Source: Williamsia faeni (lineage in GTDB: Bacteria > Actinomycetota > Actinomycetes > Mycobacteriales > Mycobacteriaceae). Taken from it: DNA of 64,000 bases. The notes below the pieces were generated by a model, which worked only from the letters and a program-made list of their open reading frames with translations, made no database searches and had not been told where the DNA came from. Below are positions 51,847-60,988 of the stretch, piece by piece (within the stretch, counting starts at the first letter, position 1; the number at the start of each line of letters is the position of its first letter). The stretch lies in NCBI GenBank assembly GCA_003202005.1, contig QJJF01000003.1, positions 496,001-560,000 on the forward strand. The letters are read 5' to 3'. The position numbers and the translations under genes are program-made.

Positions 51847-52074
51847 TCAGCGGCGTGAATCCTGTCGATCGAGCTCGCACTGAACCGCGACCTCGCTGAC
51901 ACCCCCACCGCCAAACGTGTAGAAGCGCTCACCCCTGACCGATCCGTTGACCCAGCCGCCGGCAGTCATCCAATCGATGGTCTCGCCGTCCGCGTCGAAC
52001 GCGATGACGGAATAGTCGGGATGCTGCGCCACAAATTCTGCAATGCGCCGGGCGGCGAGGCTGATTTCAGACAT
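51847..52074 (-). CDS. Small protein of unknown function
   Basis: This 75-residue protein is not recognised. It has an N-terminal helix (SEISLAARRIAEFVAQHP), then short strands (YSVIAFDADGE, IDWMTAGGWVNG, RGERFYTFGGGGVSEVAVQCEL), suggesting a small alpha-beta fold. There is no signal peptide or known motif. It converges on the hydrolase gene and lies about 190 bp downstream of tatA, with the terminator at 52246 between. A true gene is likely but not certain. Confidence 0.5.
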   Translation of the reverse strand: MSEISLAARRIAEFVAQHPDYSVIAFDADGETIDWMTAGGWVNGSVRGERFYTFGGGGVSEVAVQCELDRQDSRR

Positions 52075-52245
52075 ATCCCAGGTGATACCACGGTGACGCG
52101 GACTCCACCAAGGGCGAAGCCGTCTGCCCGGCGGGAAATGAATCGGCCGTCAACGCGGATATCTCTCCCTGTCTCGCCGTCGACGCCAGGCGTGTTGCGG
52201 ACACTGAGGTTCCGTGCCAACACCCCTTTGAACAAGCCGCCAAAT

Positions 52246-52275
52246 GCGACTGAATTGATGCCTCAATTCAGTCGC
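52246..52275 (-). terminator. Terminator overlapping the tatA stop codon
   Basis: Perfect 13-base arms (52246-52258 and 52263-52275) enclose a 4-base loop. The stop codon of tatA lies inside the right arm. Confidence 0.75.
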
Positions 52276-52549
52276 GTTGGTGGCCACTGGGATTGGTGTG
52301 GTCGCCACGAGCGGTCTCAACGTTTTCGTCGGCACGGTCCGTTGTGGTCTGGCTGGGACTGAGTTCGCGCGTACCGGTAGCAGCCGGCGGTTCGGCCCTT
52401 GTGTCGTTGTGCATTTCGTTGACTTCGCTTTTGAAGATTCGCATCGATCTGCCGAGTCCGCGGGCTGCATCAGGCAGCTTCTTGGATCCGAACAACACAA
52501 GAAAGACAGCAGCCACCAAAACGATGTGCCACGGCTGCAAAGCATTCAT
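52268..52549 (-). CDS. tatA: TatA/TatE-family twin-arginine translocase subunit
   Basis: This 93-residue protein has one N-terminal membrane helix ([13 protein letters not shown]) followed by [25 protein letters not shown], the hinge and amphipathic helix of TatA, then a polar tail. It would help export folded Tat substrates. The globin gene ends two bases before it on the same strand, so they are co-transcribed. The Tat-signal protein Lcp is encoded just upstream. Standard chromosomal tatAC genes are usually elsewhere, so this looks like a dedicated extra copy. Confidence 0.88.
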
Positions 52550-52551
52550 TT

Positions 52552-53019
52552 CTATCCCTTTCCTCGACCTGGCCCGCTCAGCAGATGCTGGTCGGTGGTG
52601 TTGGATTCTTGGCCCGGTGATTCCGGCGGGTATGCGTCGAGCATCATCGCGGCCACTGCGGTCAGTGCCTCGTTCCATTCTTTGGACATGGCATCCGTCC
52701 ACTGGGGACCGGCGATGTCAGCCATGGTGGCAACCAATGTTGTTGCCACCCAGCCGTACATCTTCCGCGTCACACCGAGCGAAGCGTGCACCCTGCCGAG
52801 CGAACTCAGCGATGTCTCCAGCCAGCCGGGGTCGTCGAGATGTTCCAGAACCGCAACGATCGCTTCCTGCAGCATCGTGGCCTGTGGTCGGATGTTCTTG
52901 CCGAAGAGCGCCTTCACCTCCGGATAGTCGGCAAACAGTCGCTCATAGAATCGAACGGTGAAGTCCGGATCGTCGGCAGCGACGAGCGCCAAACTTTGTT
53001 CGAGCAGAATTTTGTCCAT
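52552..53019 (-). CDS. Single-domain globin (flavohemoglobin-like globin)
   Basis: This 155-residue heme protein has Tyr25 at the B10-like position (FYERLF), Phe39 at CD1 and the proximal His78 in [10 protein letters not shown]. It matches the globin part of flavohemoglobins but has no reductase domain. It may bind oxygen, NO or peroxide. It is encoded two bases before tatA and downstream of lcp on the same strand. Supplying O2 or protecting the heme oxygenase is an inferred role. Confidence 0.88.
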
Positions 53020-53042
53020 AAAAATGTCCTCTTCTTCTGTGG

Positions 53043-53242
53043 TCAGGCGAGATCAGCGAGGCGCTTTTGCGCCCATTCCACGGCGGTCACATCCGAATCC
53101 ACCTGAAATGCGGCGTAATTCGCGTGCGCACCTGACTGTAGGAACTGGTTGAAGATGTTGATCTCTTCGCGAACGCGGGCGTCGCTGACCTCTCGGGCGA
53201 CGACTGCTGGCCCGTCGTAGCGTCGTACCCGACGAACTGCAC
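53043..53242 (-). pseudogene. Possible frameshifted small gene between lcp and globin
   Basis: A GTG with GGAG five bases upstream begins a frame reading MQFVGYDATTG. Another frame continues as AVVAREVSDARVREEINIF and ends HANYAAFQVDSDVTAVEWAQKRLADLA. The second part has natural composition but no start codon of its own. Joining them needs a one-base shift near 53205-53210. This is either a decayed small gene or a sequence error. Function not recognised. Confidence 0.35.
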
Positions 53243-53295
53243 GGCGTCTCCGGTCCCAGCCCGGAGGTGACCGCGCCGAGCAGTCCTGGCTGTGG

Positions 53296-54522
53296 TCAGC
53301 GACCGTAGTTCGGATTGTTGCCCACGGGGATATTGATGTTGATGGGCATACGGAGTTCAGACATGTAGAAAAGCACAAATTGACGGAGAAACTCGTCGAA
53401 CAGGAAGTACGCCTCTTTGGGTAGGCCGGCATCGAGAAGTCCTTCGCGAACCAGGACGTAAGGGCCCCAAGCTGTTTCGAGAAGCGGCGTCCAGACAGGT
53501 TCGGTAGGGATATGGAGCCAGTTGGCGACTTCATCGCCGAGCATGAAGCGGGTCAGGGCGCCGAGGATCGGTCTGGTGAGCAACGTCAGGTCCAGGTTCA
53601 TCCCGAGATCGAGGAGGGTATCGGCGAGCTTGATGCCCTCGGGCGTGGGCGCCAGGATGGGGTCGAGGACCTGTTTGGCCTGCGAATCGGCTTCGTTCCA
53701 GGAGGCAGGGATGTACTGGTCCTCCACCCCCAGCAGATGGGCACTGAGCTGCCACGAGTGCAGAAAACCCTCGGATTCGTCGGCGGCGATCGGTACCTTC
53801 CACTTGTTCAGATTGCGCATGACGGTAGTGGGCAGGCTGTGCCAGGTGACCATGATGTCGGCCTGACTGATCGGGACATCCTCGGGTGCGGAGTTCACCC
53901 AGTGCGGAGACTGCGGTAGCAGGTGGCGCACCGCGGCATGTGCCAGCCGGGTCTTGACGCAGGTGACAACCATTTCACCGTCGGGCTGATAGGCGTTGAG
54001 GGACCCGATGTCATACCCCAACTTCGCGGTCTTGGTGATGCGGTCCTTCATGTCCGCGCCACCCTTGGAGTAGTACACCGCGCGGGCCTCTTTGGGGATG
54101 ACGGTGCTCATCATGCCGCTGGCGAAGCCGTACAAGACCCCGAGATAGGTTCCGCGCTTCTGATTGAAATTGACTGCGCTGACCAGCTTTTCCTGATCGG
54201 TCCACGACGGCAGCTGCCGGGCATGTTCCATGAAGTCCCGCAGTTCGGACGGCAGGCCCGCAGGCAATGCCTGAGCGTTCTTGGTCCAGCCCCTGAGCAA
54301 CTCGTTGGCCTTGGGCACTTCTCCACGATCGAGCAATCCGGCAACCACGGGATCGGCCTCGACATCCCACACCCCGCGCGGATCAGCGCCGCTACCCATG
54401 CCCGGGACCGAGCCGGCCGGCGACCACGTCCAAGGAGTCGCCGGAGCAATCAGGCTGAACGCACCCGCCGCCCCGACCACCCCGCCGGCCTTGAGCATGT
54501 TGCGCCTATTGAATTTGTCCAT
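53296..54522 (-). CDS. lcp: Latex-clearing protein, heme-b rubber oxygenase
   Basis: This 408-residue secreted protein begins with a twin-arginine signal (NRRNMLKAG, then a hydrophobic stretch ending near APATPW). The DUF2236-type oxygenase domain carries the residues known to matter in Lcp of Streptomyces K30, here offset by three: Glu145, Arg161, Lys164, Thr165, the heme-ligand His195 and His200 (HAAVRH). Lcp cleaves poly(cis-1,4-isoprene) with O2 into oligo-isoprenoids with aldehyde and ketone ends. GGGGA precedes the ATG. A TetR gene is divergent, as described next to lcp in Gordonia polyisoprenivorans. Confidence 0.9.
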   Translation of the reverse strand: MDKFNRRNMLKAGGVVGAAGAFSLIAPATPWTWSPAGSVPGMGSGADPRGVWDVEADPVVAGLLDRGEVPKANELLRGWTKNAQALPAGLPSELRDFMEHARQLPSWTDQEKLVSAVNFNQKRGTYLGVLYGFASGMMSTVIPKEARAVYYSKGGADMKDRITKTAKLGYDIGSLNAYQPDGEMVVTCVKTRLAHAAVRHLLPQSPHWVNSAPEDVPISQADIMVTWHSLPTTVMRNLNKWKVPIAADESEGFLHSWQLSAHLLGVEDQYIPASWNEADSQAKQVLDPILAPTPEGIKLADTLLDLGMNLDLTLLTRPILGALTRFMLGDEVANWLHIPTEPVWTPLLETAWGPYVLVREGLLDAGLPKEAYFLFDEFLRQFVLFYMSELRMPININIPVGNNPNYGR

Positions 54523-54551: not shown

Positions 54552-54578
54552 TGATACAAAGTGAGTAACTTCGTATCA
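54552..54578. promoter_or_regulatory. Palindromic operator between lcp and the TetR gene
   Basis: The arms TGATACAAAGT (54552-54562) and ACTTCGTATCA (54568-54578) are complementary except for one position, around the 5-base spacer GAGTA. It lies about 30 bp before the lcp start and reads as the binding site of the divergent TetR repressor. Confidence 0.7.
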
Positions 54579-55334
54579 TTGGTACACGCCTGTGGCAGCA
54601 ATCACAAGATCAGGCACCAATGTCCGATATCACAGGTAAAGGATTGGCCCTTGGAGTACTCAGCTCGATGGTTGTCAGGTGGTCCGTCGGGTCCGCAGTC
54701 TCTACTGGAACGCGCGTTCACCGAGGCTCGAGAGTGCAGCGCCAACACCGACGCCACCCGGACCCGACTACTCGATGCGGCATACGAGCAGTTCTGCCGC
54801 ACCGGGATTCAGCGTTCCTCCGTTGAAGATGTGGCCAAGCGGGCAGGGATGTCGCGCATCACGGTCTACCGACGGTTCGCGACCAAAGACGCCTTGGTCG
54901 AGCACGTCATCCTGAGGGAAATCAGGCGGTACTTCGATCAATTTCGCATCGACATCACAGGCGCCGAGACGGCGGCCGACCGCCTCGTGGTCGGCTTCGT
55001 CAGTTCGCTTCAGGCTTTCAGGAGTAACCCGCTGATCGGCAGCCTCATCGCCACCGAACCCAACCTGTCCGTCGGCGCAATGGTCGGCGATGACGGCAGA
55101 ATGCTTGCCGCGGTAAGACAATTTGTGGCCGGTCAGCTGCGCCACGAACAACTCGTCGGGAACATAGCCGAAGATCTCGACACTGATCTCACTGCCGAAG
55201 TGATGGTACGCATCTCGGCCTCGTTCCTGACGATCCGCAGTCACGTCGTCAACCTCGATACCGAGGAAGAACTGGTTGCCGTCGCGCGTCAATTCCTCGT
55301 GCCCATGCTCCGGCTGCCTCCGGAGCGGAGTTGA
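54561..55334 (+). CDS. lcpR: TetR-family regulator divergent from lcp (LcpR-like)
   Basis: The protein has a TetR DNA-binding domain (TRTRLLDAAYEQFCRTG, then VEDVAKRAGMSRITVYRRFATKDALVEHV) and a C-terminal helical ligand domain. Position next to lcp matches the LcpR repressor reported in Gordonia polyisoprenivorans. The start is uncertain: the frame-opening GTG lies inside the palindrome and could only serve a leaderless transcript, and no ATG or GTG occurs in frame before the HTH. A TTG at 54672 would give a protein of about 220 residues, closer to normal TetR length. Confidence 0.75.
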   Translation: MSNFVSLVHACGSNHKIRHQCPISQVKDWPLEYSARWLSGGPSGPQSLLERAFTEARECSANTDATRTRLLDAAYEQFCRTGIQRSSVEDVAKRAGMSRITVYRRFATKDALVEHVILREIRRYFDQFRIDITGAETAADRLVVGFVSSLQAFRSNPLIGSLIATEPNLSVGAMVGDDGRMLAAVRQFVAGQLRHEQLVGNIAEDLDTDLTAEVMVRISASFLTIRSHVVNLDTEEELVAVARQFLVPMLRLPPERS

Positions 55335-56592: not shown

Positions 56593-57291
56593 TTAATTTT
56601 TCGATCTGCGCGCGAACGCAATACCAGCCAAGAATCCCGTCAGGACCAGCACAACCGCCGGCAACACCTTCTTCAGACCGGCATCAAACCCGGTTGCCTG
56701 CAACAAGTCCAACGGCTGCGACACCTTAGGGGCGCTCGACTGTCCGGCGTCGGCGATTTCGCTGTTGCCGTCACGGTCCGGTGATGCTGTCGAAGCACCA
56801 GTTGACGTTTCCTCCGGTTCGGTCACCGCTCCATCTGCGTCTGGACGTACCGCGGAAAGTTCCTCGGCCAAGTTGTCCGCGAACTTCCCGATGAGCATCT
56901 CGGCAACTTCGTTGAGGGTGCCACGTCCGAACTGCGCCGGTTTGCCGGTGATGTCGAGATCGGTTTCCACAAAAACATCTGTCGTGTCACCGGATTCCGC
57001 CAACCTGCAGGTGATGAGCGCTTTGGCGGTACCGTTTCCGCGAGCTTCCCTGGCCCCACCCTCCAGTACGGCCACGTGAGCGGATTCATCGCGGGAGACG
57101 ATTTTGATGACACCCTTGTACGTCAGGCCAATTGGACCGAGTTTGACCTTCATCTTGCCGTTGAACTCATCACCCTGCCGCGAGGTGACCTCGGCACCGG
57201 GTACACACGGTGCGATTCGTTCGAGATCGAGCAGTACCTTCCAGGCGTCAGCAGTGGGCACCGGTATGTTGAAGTTGTTCTCGAGCTTCAT
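56593..57291 (-). CDS. CoxG-like SRPBCC protein with C-terminal membrane anchor
   Basis: This 232-residue protein begins with a START/SRPBCC domain of the CoxG type (MKLENNFNIPVPTADAWKVLLDLERIAPCVPGAE), followed by an acidic linker (about 155-200). It ends with a membrane helix (LPAVVLVLTGFLAGIAFARR). CoxG proteins occur with molybdenum hydroxylases and can anchor or recruit them to the membrane. It is the last gene of the operon encoding the three enzyme subunits, ten bases after the iron-sulfur subunit gene. Confidence 0.87.
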   Translation of the reverse strand: MKLENNFNIPVPTADAWKVLLDLERIAPCVPGAEVTSRQGDEFNGKMKVKLGPIGLTYKGVIKIVSRDESAHVAVLEGGAREARGNGTAKALITCRLAESGDTTDVFVETDLDITGKPAQFGRGTLNEVAEMLIGKFADNLAEELSAVRPDADGAVTEPEETSTGASTASPDRDGNSEIADAGQSSAPKVSQPLDLLQATGFDAGLKKVLPAVVLVLTGFLAGIAFARRSKN

Positions 57292-57301
57292 ATTCTGCCC
57301 T

Positions 57302-57784
57302 TCAATGCGATTGGTCGTCGGCCTCTGCGGCGGCTCGCACCGCTGCGATGATTCCCTGATAACCCGTGCAGCGGCACAGGTTTCCGGAGATGCCTTCTCG
57401 GATCTCGTCATCTGACGGTCGTGGGTTGTCTTTCAGTAGCGCAGTTGCCGTCATGACAAACCCCGGAGTGCAGAACCCACACTGCAGTCCGTGATTGTCG
57501 CGAAATGCGGCTTGAACTGTGGACAGGGTGCCGTCTTTCGACGCGATACCTTCGATCGTGGTGATCTCGGCACCGTCGGCCTGGACTGCAAACACCAAAC
57601 AGGCGCGTACAGCCTCACCGTCGAGCATCACCGAGCAGGCCCCGCATACCCCGTGCTCGCAGCCCAGATGCGTGCCGGTCAAACCGCAGTCGACCCGCAG
57701 AAAATCCGCCAGTGTCAGCCGCGGCGGCACCGAATGCCGTTGCGGCACACCGTTGACACGTACTTCAATATCAATGTTGGTCAT
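57302..57784 (-). CDS. Molybdenum hydroxylase, [2Fe-2S] small subunit
   Basis: This 160-residue subunit binds two [2Fe-2S] clusters. The plant-type motif is [11 protein letters not shown] with a later Cys in RACLV; the second cluster uses CGFCTPG and CRCTGY. It passes electrons from the molybdenum site to FAD. It overlaps the end of the FAD-subunit gene by 14 bases. The set corresponds to oxidoreductases such as OxiAB of the Streptomyces K30 lcp locus. Confidence 0.93.
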
Positions 57785-58652
57785 TGATCGCTCCCTCTAC
57801 GGCGCGACGCCAGGCGCGCGCCACCATCAACGAACCCACACGTTTTCGGTAATCCGCCGATCCGTGCAGATCGGCGGGTATCGAGCTCAACGACGCCAAT
57901 GCATCGACTCCGATCCCGTCAGGCTCAATGTCATCAGCGCGCAGGCCGATCACGGACTGTTCTACTGTCTGAACCCGCACCACCGACGAGGCGAGTCCGA
58001 ACAAGGCGATGGCACAATGTTCGACCCGTGAGTCGGCGTCGAGACGGACGCTCACCGCAGCGCCGGCGATTGCGAAGTCTCCACTGCGCCGGGCGAATTC
58101 CTCGATGGCATATCCAGTTCGACCGCTTCGGATCGGTACGATGACGCCGGTCAGGATTTCGTCCTCGGCAAGTTCGGTACCCCACAATCCTTTGAAGAAG
58201 TCCGTCGCCGCGATCCTGCGCACACCACGAGGAGAAATTGCATCGAACTCGGCGTCGAGCGCCAAAGTCACTGCGGGATACTCGGCCGCAGCATCCGCAT
58301 GGGCGATGGATCCGCCGATCGTCCCTCGATTGCGAATCTGGAAATGACCGATGAGCGGAGTGGCCTCGGCCAGCAGCGGCACGTTCGAGCGGATCTGCGC
58401 CGACCTGCCGATCGCCGTATGCGTGGTTCCGGCTCCGATCCACACCGAGTCGTCGCGAACCTCGATGCCGCGCAGGTCACCGATACGCCTCAAATCCACC
58501 AGGTGGTCGAAGGCGGCCAGCCTCAGATTGAGCATCGGCATCAAACTCTGCCCGCCGGCGATGATCTTCGCATCATCACCGAGTTCCGACAGCAGTTGCA
58601 CGGCCTCATCGATCGTGGCCGGTGAGTGATAGTCGAACGCAGCCGGTTTCAC
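57771..58652 (-). CDS. Molybdenum hydroxylase, FAD-binding medium subunit
   Basis: This 293-residue subunit has the FAD motifs AGGQSLMPMLNLR and TIGGSIAHADAAAEYP of the CoxM/xanthine-oxidase FAD domain, and a CO-dehydrogenase-type C-terminal domain. It takes electrons from the iron-sulfur subunit. The start is GTG, overlapping the large-subunit stop by four bases, which implies coupled translation. Confidence 0.92.
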   Translation of the reverse strand: MKPAAFDYHSPATIDEAVQLLSELGDDAKIIAGGQSLMPMLNLRLAAFDHLVDLRRIGDLRGIEVRDDSVWIGAGTTHTAIGRSAQIRSNVPLLAEATPLIGHFQIRNRGTIGGSIAHADAAAEYPAVTLALDAEFDAISPRGVRRIAATDFFKGLWGTELAEDEILTGVIVPIRSGRTGYAIEEFARRSGDFAIAGAAVSVRLDADSRVEHCAIALFGLASSVVRVQTVEQSVIGLRADDIEPDGIGVDALASLSSIPADLHGSADYRKRVGSLMVARAWRRAVEGAINDQH

Positions 58653-60988
58653 TTGTCACCCGCCCCGGCTCGCGCGGCCTCGATCAGGCCGACGATTCTC
58701 GACGGCGACAAGGGCAGACGGCTGATCTCGACACCCAGCGGAGCCAGCGCGTCGGCCACGGCATTCACGACCGCAGGAGACGACCCGATTGCACCACCTT
58801 CGCCGACGCCCTTGTACCCACCCGGACCTTGACTCGGTGTCTCGACGTGTCCGAGTTCGATGACCGGCACTTCAGTTGCTGTTGGCAACAGGTAGTCCAT
58901 GAATGTTGTGGTCACGGGATTTCCGCTCTCGTCGTAGGCCGACTCTTCGTAGAGTGCACCACCGATTCCTTGCACGGTACCGCCCCAGATCTGACCCTCG
59001 ACGACGCTGGGGTTGATCATCGGGCCGCAGTCGTCGCTGACGATGTAGCGCAGCAATGTGACTGCGCCGGTGTTGACGTCGACCTCGCAGGTACATACGT
59101 GGGTCGCGTTGGCCCAGATCATCGGGAGTGGCGATCGGTAGCGTCCACTCGCCTCTAGTCCGGCCGGTACACCGGCGGGAAGCCCTTCAACACCGAAGTA
59201 CGCAATGTCTGCGATCTCGGCCAAAGACAGTTCAACATCGGGAACGCCGCGAACGGTTGCCCGGCTCCGGATGAACTCGATGTCGTCGACCTGGGCATCG
59301 AGGCGGTGCGCTGCAATCGCCAGAATTCGCTCGCGAAGGCCCGCTGCTGTCTCGTTGATGGCACCCGCGGTCATCGAACCCGAACGACTGCCTCCCGTGC
59401 CGCCACCGAAAGGGGTGACCGCGGTGTCGCCTTGAATGGTGTTGACATCGCCGATGTCCACACCCAGCGCGTCAGCGGTCAACTGGATGACGGTGGTCTC
59501 CAGGCTGTTGCCGGCAGATCCACCGGCGACATACACGTTGACCTTGCCCGACGGCTCGATCCGGATTGTTGCGCCTTCGGTGACGTGGAACGGAGCGGCG
59601 CCGGCAGTGGGTTCGAGATAGGTACAAGTACCGACACCCAGGTATCGCCCTGCCGCCCTGGCCGCTTCCTGCTCGGCACGAAATGCCTCATAGTCCAGTA
59701 TCGACAGGGCCTGCTCGAAGGTCTCCGACGGAGTGGCATCGCTGTAGGGCATGCCGTTGGGGCTTATCATCGGCATGTCTTTGCTGCTCAACATGTTTCG
59801 TCGGCGTAGTTCCACCGGGTCGATGCCGATCTGACGGGCGGCCGTGTCGAGGAGCACCTCGCGGGCCATGGACTCGAACTGCCATGGCCCCCGGTATGCG
59901 ACACGTCCAACAGTATTCGAGTAGAACAACTTCAGACTGAAGGTGGCGTCGGTGACCCGATACGGACCGGGGAACAGCATCCCGACGACCGAGGCCGCTG
60001 TCAGCGGAGACGTGATCGGGTACGCACCCACGTTCTGGACATGCTGCAGTTGCGCGGCGAGAATGTGCCCGTCCTCGTCGAAAGCCATTCGGGCTTCGCC
60101 GTGTTCTTGCCTTGCCATTCCCGCAGACATGAGGTGTTCTTGTCGATCCTCGATCCACTTGAGCGACGCCGACAGTTTCGTTGCGGCCAGCATCACGGCC
60201 ATGTCCTCGCGCTGAGGCGCCACCTTCTGGCCGAAGCCGCCGCCCGTATCGCGAACCACGACACGTACGCGATGCTCGTCGATGCCCAGCAGACGAGCGC
60301 ATACGAGGCGGGTTTCGTGCGGCGATTGGGTTGACGTCCATATCTGCATCTCCCCGGACGACGCAGACCATTCGGCGATGATGCCGCGGGTCTCCATCGG
60401 CATCGGCATATACGCCTGCTGGTAAATGCTCTGCGTAACAACGTGTCGCGCGCCGTCGAAGATGGGAGCCAGATCTTCCGCCGGCCTTCCACCCAACTCG
60501 CCGGCGCTATTCCCCGGATACTGCGGATGGACCAGGTTCTCGGACTGATCCGCAGTCGTGTAATCGACGACCGGCGTCAGTGGGTCGTAGTCCACCACAA
60601 CCAGTTCCGCCGCATCCTCGGCCACGTATCGATCGCGGGCCACGACCAGAGCAACCGGGTCTCCGACGAATCGGACCTCTCCATCGGCGAGGGGCGGCCA
60701 TTGAAACGTCGGAAAGTAACGGCCATCGAGCGAGTACCGAACCTCGTGCACGAGGGGGTTGAGGTCATTGGCGAGGAATATCGCTTCCACGCCGTCCAGT
60801 GCCACTGCCTCGGAGATATCGATCCCGAGGATACGTCCACGAGGTAGCGGGCTTCGAACGAAGCAGGCGTGCCACATGCCCGGACGTATCACGTCGTCCA
60901 CGTAGGTCCCGGTTCCCGTGAGCAGTCGAGGATCCTCAGTCCTCGGAACGCGGGTGCCGACGTACTGCTCGATGACCGTTCTCGTCAT
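58649..60988 (-). CDS. Molybdenum hydroxylase, molybdopterin-binding large subunit
   Basis: This 779-residue catalytic subunit belongs to the xanthine oxidase/CO dehydrogenase family. It has GGGFGQK, the substrate loop VAYRGPWQFE (the CoxL loop AYRCSFR is absent, so it is not CO dehydrogenase) and KGVGEGGAIG with the catalytic Glu. By context it probably oxidises an aldehyde or heteroaromatic; oxidation of isoprenoid aldehydes from Lcp is likely. The start overlaps the binding-protein gene stop by four bases (ATGA). Confidence 0.92.
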   Translation of the reverse strand: MTRTVIEQYVGTRVPRTEDPRLLTGTGTYVDDVIRPGMWHACFVRSPLPRGRILGIDISEAVALDGVEAIFLANDLNPLVHEVRYSLDGRYFPTFQWPPLADGEVRFVGDPVALVVARDRYVAEDAAELVVVDYDPLTPVVDYTTADQSENLVHPQYPGNSAGELGGRPAEDLAPIFDGARHVVTQSIYQQAYMPMPMETRGIIAEWSASSGEMQIWTSTQSPHETRLVCARLLGIDEHRVRVVVRDTGGGFGQKVAPQREDMAVMLAATKLSASLKWIEDRQEHLMSAGMARQEHGEARMAFDEDGHILAAQLQHVQNVGAYPITSPLTAASVVGMLFPGPYRVTDATFSLKLFYSNTVGRVAYRGPWQFESMAREVLLDTAARQIGIDPVELRRRNMLSSKDMPMISPNGMPYSDATPSETFEQALSILDYEAFRAEQEAARAAGRYLGVGTCTYLEPTAGAAPFHVTEGATIRIEPSGKVNVYVAGGSAGNSLETTVIQLTADALGVDIGDVNTIQGDTAVTPFGGGTGGSRSGSMTAGAINETAAGLRERILAIAAHRLDAQVDDIEFIRSRATVRGVPDVELSLAEIADIAYFGVEGLPAGVPAGLEASGRYRSPLPMIWANATHVCTCEVDVNTGAVTLLRYIVSDDCGPMINPSVVEGQIWGGTVQGIGGALYEESAYDESGNPVTTTFMDYLLPTATEVPVIELGHVETPSQGPGGYKGVGEGGAIGSSPAVVNAVADALAPLGVEISRLPLSPSRIVGLIEAARAGAGDK

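Follow-up and report, generated by a model that had tools for sequence, protein, structure and literature searches.

A dispersed LcpR-type regulon in Williamsia and Gordonia that probably joins a globin and a second TatA to the rubber oxygenase Lcp

The closest described relatives of the locus reported here are the lcp genes of Gordonia polyisoprenivorans VH2 with their regulator LcpR, the lcp-oxiAB cluster of Streptomyces sp. K30 and the lcp1-lcp2-oxiB-oxiA operon of Actinoplanes sp. OR16. In VH2, a rubber oxygenase (latex clearing protein, Lcp) that binds haem b and is exported by the twin-arginine translocation (Tat) pathway is accompanied by a TetR-type regulator, LcpR_VH2, which interacts with palindromes in both lcp promoters (PMC7413915), and a CRP-type box has likewise been described as the CRP_VH2 motif (PMC8235351). 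LcpR binding together with induction on rubber is reported solely for lcp promoters of other strains (PMC7413915). Export of the haem-loaded enzyme by Tat is experimental for K30, with haem taken up inside the cell (PMC6311187). The openly available portions of this literature, on which our comparisons rest, centre on Lcp, its regulator and aldehyde oxidation, and for the VH2, K30 and OR16 loci they name no globin, TatA, cutinase or microprotein. Here we describe a 64,000-nucleotide stretch of the Williamsia faeni genome (contig QJJF01000003.1, positions 496,001 to 560,000; hereafter the window), in which lcp is followed by a globin gene and a second tatA.

The genome (5.52 Mb in 44 contigs) carries these genes on the minus strand of the window in the order lcp (53296-54522, 408 residues), a cutinase-family pseudogene (53046-53292), a single-domain globin gene (52552-53019, 155 residues) and tatA (52268-52549, 93 residues). 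As first annotated, lcp, globin and tatA share a strand, and the tatA start follows the globin stop by two bases (TAG, AA, ATG). A near-perfect 27-bp palindrome, TGATACGAAGTTACTCACTTTGTATCA in minus-strand reading (54552-54578), precedes lcp; beyond it lies a CRP-like box, TGTGG-N6-TCACA, with one mismatch to TGTGA-N6-TCACA (54591-54606; comparable boxes were seen by eye in other lcp promoters). A divergent TetR-family gene is the LcpR candidate (54561-55334, plus strand). To judge from the sequences, the window is likely to hold one form of an LcpR-controlled rubber-degradation regulon, with lcp, a decayed cutinase gene, the globin and TatA behind one palindrome and with roles in export and oxygen supply. 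This reading rests on the finding that, in relatives, the same motif precedes globin, tatA and microprotein genes at many places distant from lcp.

Recognition of the motif required a degenerate description. Since the motif varies between loci, a strict initial pattern caught no more than 12 of 152 lcp promoters, and it was replaced by a matrix built from 120 distinct promoters of the 152, short Lcp matches and promoters with little upstream DNA being excluded. Degenerate forms of the palindrome precede lcp in most loci outside Nocardia, and many Nocardia lcp promoters misfit the matrix. Neighbourhoods were taken for 80 of the listed lcp places, and from a further set of 343 confirmed loci, in which the same contigs often recur, 80 were kept; away from lcp promoters, the first 80 neighbourhoods (1.26 Mb) contain no site of at least 18 bits by this first matrix. 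As a guard against circularity, a second, outgroup matrix was derived from 30 lcp promoters outside Williamsia and Gordonia only. With it, the window palindrome scores 31.9 bits and is the only site of 8 bits or more in the 64 kb. The palindrome of VH2 lcp1 (PMC7413915) has the same 27-bp core as one locus in our set (L073, itself in the training set of the first matrix) and scores 23.1 and 24.5 bits with the two matrices; G329, a genome whose lcp site has that core, gave no match to the window globin.

The outgroup matrix assigned 21.5-28.9 bits to 16 sites before globin, tatA and microprotein genes and 19.0 bits to a seventeenth (L048), and only 4 of 824,649 other positions reached 10 bits. 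Three of these four are accounted for by the L048 microprotein promoter and by a relic lcp promoter that two overlapping loci share, which leaves one otherwise unexplained site in about 0.82 Mb, inside an FMO-like gene of L147. A pattern search allowing one mismatch was then applied to 24 genomes, most of them picked for having regulon genes, so that its counts show what the sites precede and not how frequent the regulon is. It returned 64 sites, of which 25 precede lcp, 10 the microprotein, 5 a globin gene and 5 a tatA, with 14 in a recurrent sequence and 5 elsewhere; the reversed pattern, used as a control in the same genomes, returned one. The 14 recurrent hits were not accepted as operators: in the two that were read (L291, L294) the match falls within a coding frame that by eye resembles an acyl-CoA ligase, and the sequence scores 12.1 bits, or 12.0 with the outgroup matrix. 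The five others (two in G383, two in G293 and one in G379) are unexplained.

Comparison of all 27 neighbourhoods of Gordonia globins unlinked to lcp located an operator 40-56 bases upstream of five of them (L132, L133, L136, L137 and L138), and in G379, where tatA and globin form a pair (L147), the operator stands before tatA. In Williamsia, it precedes the start of each of the four solo tatA genes by 81-89 bases. The initial annotation had suggested a dedicated module; the recurrence of the genes together in relatives and the presence of LcpR-type operators at many lcp-distant globins and second TatAs support that suggestion, and on sequence grounds LcpR probably governs a dispersed regulon that includes the globin and TatA. 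The comparison with VH2, K30 and OR16 suggests that the lcp/LcpR system itself is already known and that what is new lies in its added, dispersed members.

Nor is the neighbourhood confined to the window. Had gene order been conserved nowhere else, the initial annotation would have lost its ground; the genes do recur in relatives, though their order differs by genus, globin-tatA in Williamsia and tatA-globin in Gordonia. All nine Williamsia genomes examined carry lcp, and a globin adjoins an lcp in each of the nine (11 loci), lcp being cut by a contig end in four loci of G092 and G076 (315 residues visible in G092, 19 in G076). Among 59 Gordonia genomes, 46 have lcp (47 genes) and 25 a globin of this kind (33 genes), six of which, in six genomes, adjoin lcp. 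The globin thus lies directly downstream of lcp on the same strand at 17 loci in two genera, which rules out a one-off neighbourhood. In Gordonia it is present in 25 of 46 lcp-positive genomes vs 0 of 13 lcp-negative ones (Fisher p 0.0003, kinship not corrected). Unguided clustering of genes up to 2.5 kb downstream of lcp, at 79 loci with gene calls that had been taken only for their lcp, returned the globin as the largest same-strand family (10 loci), equalled by one opposite-strand family (10 loci) and followed by cutinase (6 loci). Where lcp and globin are closest (L047), the stop of one and the start of the other overlap by one base (TGATG), and coupled translation is therefore suggested.

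Several observations weigh against the proposed regulon. Within the window, neither globin nor tatA has an operator of its own, and LcpR control of both would need read-through over 276 bases of pseudogene, where a search for terminator-like sites on the minus strand found none. Neither gene adjoins the genome's second lcp (L045). Two Williamsia genomes with the lcp-globin arrangement, G119 and G059, have a single TatA and no TetR match beside lcp (L047, L048). Among the window and 168 further loci (many named ones repeating unnamed ones), those from outside the two genera gave no globin or TatA match within 4 kb of lcp, except at L155; 41 of the 47 Gordonia lcp genes have no adjoining globin, some of them lying near contig ends; and 21 of the 27 unlinked Gordonia globins are without the operator. 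Several microprotein sites score only 13.9-17.8 bits with the first matrix, and the palindrome of VH2 lcp2 (PMC7413915) fits neither matrix (-5.3 and -15.9 bits), so that the motif does not account for all recognition by LcpR. Most lcp loci examined are without both globin and TatA, as might be expected if the two were passengers brought in by rearrangement or transfer and had no role in rubber use; the differing gene order and the position of several lcp copies of G092 and G076 at contig ends fit such a history as well. Passengers would not be expected to carry the operator at five unlinked Gordonia globins and at five tatA genes, and two separate globin clades are represented in the regulon. 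Because the unlinked copies carry operators, we regard mere carriage as very unlikely and retain the regulon as the better account of the locus.

The exception at L155 comes from a record titled Kitasatospora arboriphila NRRL B-24581, which holds a Williamsia-type lcp-globin locus; the title is probably wrong.

The product of the window lcp is, by its sequence, a predicted rubber oxygenase and a member of the Lcp family. It matches the Pfam family MPAB_Lcp_cat (PF09995; E 4.9e-16, 59.9 bits against a cut-off of 23), and its best match in the PDB, covering residues 1-404 with E 1.6e-145, is the rubber oxygenase 5o1l, which we take to be LcpK30. By alignment, R161, K164, T165 and H195 of the window protein correspond to R164, K167, T168 and H198 of 5o1l; among 13 aligned Lcps, R161, T165 and H195 are invariant and K164 almost so. 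H198 is presumably the proximal haem ligand, with R164 and T168 on the distal side. A role of Lys167 at the haem site is described in PMC6311187. The protein exceeds the cut-off of the Pfam Tat signal (PF10518; 26.1 bits against 22.7); counting against a twin-arginine signal, the NCBIfam model TAT_signal_seq gives 16.5, just below its cut-off of 16.7.

TatA was recognized by PF02416 (E 5.6e-17) and, in NCBIfam, by the equivalog NF001854 (100.5 bits, cut-off 72) and by TIGR01411 (58.3, cut-off 53.9), a family built of a membrane helix, a hinge and an amphipathic helix. The genome has three PF02416 matches: the housekeeping tatA of 90 residues, which is followed by TatC (L256; PF00902 E 1.5e-63), the window copy, and a weak match of 21.7 bits. 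Seven of the nine Williamsia genomes possess a second TatA, inside the lcp locus in the window genome, G092 and G076 and away from lcp in G010, G106, G040 and G131; the family search covered seven of the nine genomes, G040 being read from L307 and G131 from L306. Gordonia has a second TatA above 45 bits in 6 of 59 genomes, inside the lcp locus in G399, G406, G151 and G249 and apart from it in G379 (the tatA-globin pair) and G191. Second TatAs therefore stand in an lcp locus or behind an operator in 7 of 7 Williamsia cases and in 5 of 6 Gordonia cases, the operator not having been looked for in the sixth, G191. In a tree of 26 TatAs, from which a degenerate copy beside the second lcp of G406 was omitted, the lcp-linked copies formed no supported clade (approximately unbiased test, p 0.27, by which such a clade is neither shown nor rejected); this too counts against the proposed regulon, and with that tree unresolved we do not claim a single lcp-type TatA clade.

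That the extra TatA serves Lcp export is plausible, given that Lcp leaves the cell by Tat and that the second TatAs of Williamsia are all lcp-linked or operator-bearing. From these sequence data we think it reasonably probable that the extra protein adds Tat capacity for folded, haem-loaded Lcp. As no TatC is encoded beside it, it would join the housekeeping Tat system and raise its capacity when much Lcp leaves the cell. Tat subunits encoded and induced with their substrate are known from phoD-tatAd-tatCd of Bacillus subtilis, in which, besides, the TatAy-TatCy translocase and YwbN provide a case of one translocase preferring a haem peroxidase (PMC3068169). Unlike these pairs, the window adds TatA alone, without TatC, beside a retained housekeeping tatA-tatC, and would be a natural case of a TatA-only addition linked to one cargo. 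TatA is able to work in trans with TatC from another locus, and the extra copy might instead serve other Tat substrates on rubber, or stabilize membranes, as its occurrence away from lcp (L254, L255, L306 and L307) would allow. Such other duties we consider unlikely, since the regulon's obvious cargo for Tat is Lcp and none of 13 lcp-negative Gordonia genomes has another TatA above 45 bits; Williamsia gives no such contrast because all nine genomes have lcp. Of the two roles proposed here, the export role of TatA is likelier than the oxygen role of the globin.

The window globin is a single-domain member of the flavohaemoglobin-like family as judged from its sequence (PF00042 E 1.6e-14; no reductase domain). 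All 10 aligned sequences share the haem-pocket residues Tyr25, Gln46 and His78, and from the alignment to 1cqx we take them to be the B10 tyrosine, the E7 glutamine and the proximal histidine. The AlphaFold model (pLDDT 87.8) has Hell's gate globin I as its best structural match, with neuroglobins and flavohaemoglobin 1cqx close behind. Hell's gate globin I (3s1i, TM score 0.89 by target length) and Vitreoscilla haemoglobin (3tm3, 0.74) share the fold at 25% and 21% identity; the window copy differs in probably standing under a rubber-degradation regulator. The tree of 44 globins contains a clade of 16 genes (support 100/100), 11 of them beside lcp in Williamsia and five in Gordonia with their own operator, so that all 16 belong to the regulon, each being behind lcp or its own operator. 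The second clade comprises 28 Gordonia genes: six beside lcp, one behind an operator and tatA, and 21 outside. Globins of two kinds have therefore entered the regulon. That all relatives of the window globin are rubber genes is ruled out by the 21 unlinked copies without an operator. Clade-2 globins without the operator adjoin a flavoprotein-monooxygenase-like gene in L131, L134, L135, L142 and L144 (Pfam FMO-like, checked for L131 only).

The initial annotation assigned the globin to supplying oxygen to, or protecting, the oxygenase. This proposal emerges weaker: no signal peptide is visible, the globin is expected to be cytoplasmic, Lcp acts outside the cell, and the one can therefore hardly feed the other directly. 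Vitreoscilla haemoglobin is held to supply oxygen to respiration and to oxygenases (PMC3962134), and a cytoplasmic globin of the Vitreoscilla/flavohaemoglobin type would supply respiration and intracellular oxygen-using steps while surface Lcp consumes oxygen. Such support of oxygen supply in cells that share their oxygen with Lcp is, on the sequences, a tentative proposal that falls somewhat short of probable. Detoxification of nitric oxide or reactive oxygen offers another function, the globin being co-induced with an oxygenase that leaks radicals or encounters nitric oxide in biofilms; its sole NCBIfam match is flavohaemoprotein, at 62.4 bits far below the cut-off of 432, and flavohaemoglobin is among the near structures together with Hell's gate globin I, neuroglobins and Vitreoscilla haemoglobin. 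With 155 residues, no reductase domain and a rubber enzyme for company, the protein makes an improbable detoxifier.

Haem handling would give the globin a place nearer to Lcp, since Lcp, too, has a globin core and binds haem, which it takes up inside the cell (PMC6311187), and the one-base overlap in L047 couples the two genes tightly; the globin would then buffer haem b or hand it to apo-Lcp before export. The invariance of Tyr25, Gln46 and His78 is what is expected of a stable ligand-binding globin, and many lcp-bearing genomes have no globin. To our knowledge, no single-domain globin is established as a haem chaperone for another enzyme. We hold this role to be quite improbable and keep to oxygen supply, with the reserve given above.

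Taken together, the proposed sequence of events would be as follows. Rubber-derived inducers would release LcpR, with CRP helping, and a single transcript starting at the lcp promoter would cover lcp, globin and tatA. The oxygenase would fold round haem b in the cytoplasm and exit by Tat, with TatA and the globin acting as outlined. Export of enough active rubber oxygenase, its oxygen cost and the uptake of its products are problems for Gram-positive rubber degraders that the regulon signature turns into gene-deletion questions, and the processing of rubber waste gains candidate partners to co-express with Lcp, TatA first. Among the papers that searches of the open-licence PMC literature listed, no title or abstract opening describes an association of lcp with a globin, TatA or cutinase, in agreement with the initial annotation, by which published lcp loci are described without globin or TatA. 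The available parts of PMC8538451, PMC3426405, PMC6311187, PMC8235351 and PMC7413915 likewise describe no association of lcp with either gene; in PMC6311187 the word globin denotes the fold of Lcp itself and not a neighbouring gene, and PMC8538451 lists TatA, TatB and TatC genes for Dactylosporangium but assigns them to no lcp locus.

The third kind of gene behind the operator encodes a conserved microprotein. Ten operator sites precede, by 59-184 bases, an ATG-started frame of 29-33 residues such as MLSAIFYAIEAFDNLLWDIAETIVTGSDEAAGS. These and related frames were located at L300 3433, L301 3301, L302 4192, L303 4258, L304 4214, L305 3648, L308 4132, L309 4123 and L310 3038, and further at L048 9647 and 7519, L047 9640, L125 1369 and L130 6907. 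In four lcp operons the frame stands at the globin end, 11 bases behind the globin frame in L048 and overlapping the last 70 bases of the globin in L047, L125 and L130. A model built from 12 sequences, without the four solo-tatA copies, was searched against the loci taken for lcp, globin, tatA and operator; it recovered the microprotein after the solo tatA of L254, L255, L306 and L307 (E 1.7e-13 to 1.9e-12) and did not find it in the window, in L045 (the second lcp) or in L260. The two variants scanned have no Pfam or NCBIfam match. Drawn as a helix, it has a moment of 0.37-0.45, against about 0.14 for the mean of shuffled sequences, and is thus strongly amphipathic.

Comparably short proteins are the corynebacterial PorA, PorH and ProtX, of 45, 57 and 38 residues, which have no classical signal sequence and are mycoloylated on serine, near the carboxyl terminus in PorH and ProtX (PMC5310785). 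The microprotein is likewise very short; as a helix it is amphipathic, and it ends in TGS plus 2-6 residues, the proposed likeness being one of form. One may picture a rubber kit in Williamsia and part of Gordonia that remodels cell envelope and oxygen use for the attack on the polymer, in which an LcpR-controlled TatA widens Tat export, globins of two clades keep oxygen, and the microprotein is perhaps a mycomembrane porin admitting oligo-isoprenoids, a combination we put forward as speculative and rather doubtful. If it were true, the microprotein would represent a family, linked to the use of rubber, that has so far escaped recognition. In L303 and L304 (Williamsia G092 and G076) an alpha/beta-hydrolase gene stands across the microprotein operator, with an FMO-like monooxygenase gene in addition in G076, and in Gordonia G379 (L147) the tatA-globin pair stands opposite an FMO-like gene and a similar hydrolase. 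The methyl-ketone ends that Lcp leaves could be processed by such hydrolase and FMO-like enzymes.

In the window, the remains of a cutinase-family gene occupy the 276-base gap that separates lcp from the globin. Three pieces were found, the best with 62% identity over 58 residues (E 4e-24); they match residues 64-89 and 252-309 of an intact relative, lie in different frames and have lost a large internal part. Two sister genomes, G092 (L126; PF01083 E 1.3e-16) and G076 (L129), have an intact cutinase at the same position, in the order lcp-cutinase-globin-tatA, which is the window order unreduced. Cutinase-family genes also follow lcp in Gordonia (L054, L060, L061 and L148) and in Nocardia loci such as L193, L199 and L207, so that the pairing of cutinase with lcp is broader than that of globin with lcp. 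The intact cutinase would probably be secreted and, as an esterase, attack the lipids of natural rubber.

The divergent TetR-family gene was recognized by PF00440 (E 1.9e-13). Its true start probably lies inside the open reading frame, the TetR_N domain beginning at about 54768, and a related gene is divergent from lcp in most loci outside Nocardia, L047 and L048 excepted. Three pattern sites occur in the window genome: before this lcp, before the second lcp and at a third position (G000:C1:959407-959433, L260 5408-5434), where a CRP-like box is followed only by what appear by eye to be the first lcp codons, so that the site looks like the relic of a third lcp locus. Other neighbours have less to do with the cluster. 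The window has no oxiAB pair directly beside lcp, in contrast to K30 and OR16; 2.8 kb from lcp (56593-59980, minus strand) lie a CoxG-like gene and the 2Fe-2S, FAD and molybdopterin-binding subunits of a molybdenum hydroxylase. A link to oxiAB was rejected, the 2Fe-2S and FAD proteins (57302-58652) being near lcp in no other neighbourhood examined. The interval from 51847, where the module had been taken to begin, takes in a frame of 75 residues with no Pfam match over cut-off, which could not be tied to the cluster. The second lcp of the genome is followed by a glyoxalase-like gene of 145 residues (L045 7462-7899, minus strand; Glyoxalase_6 E 1.5e-28), and a similar gene of 145 residues lies 57 bases after lcp in Gordonia G387 (L055). 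Finally, a weaker LcpR-like site of 14.9 bits in Gordonia G293 (L311 2958) stands between a TetR-like gene and a gene of the carotenoid-oxygenase family (RPE65, PF03055 E 1.2e-82).

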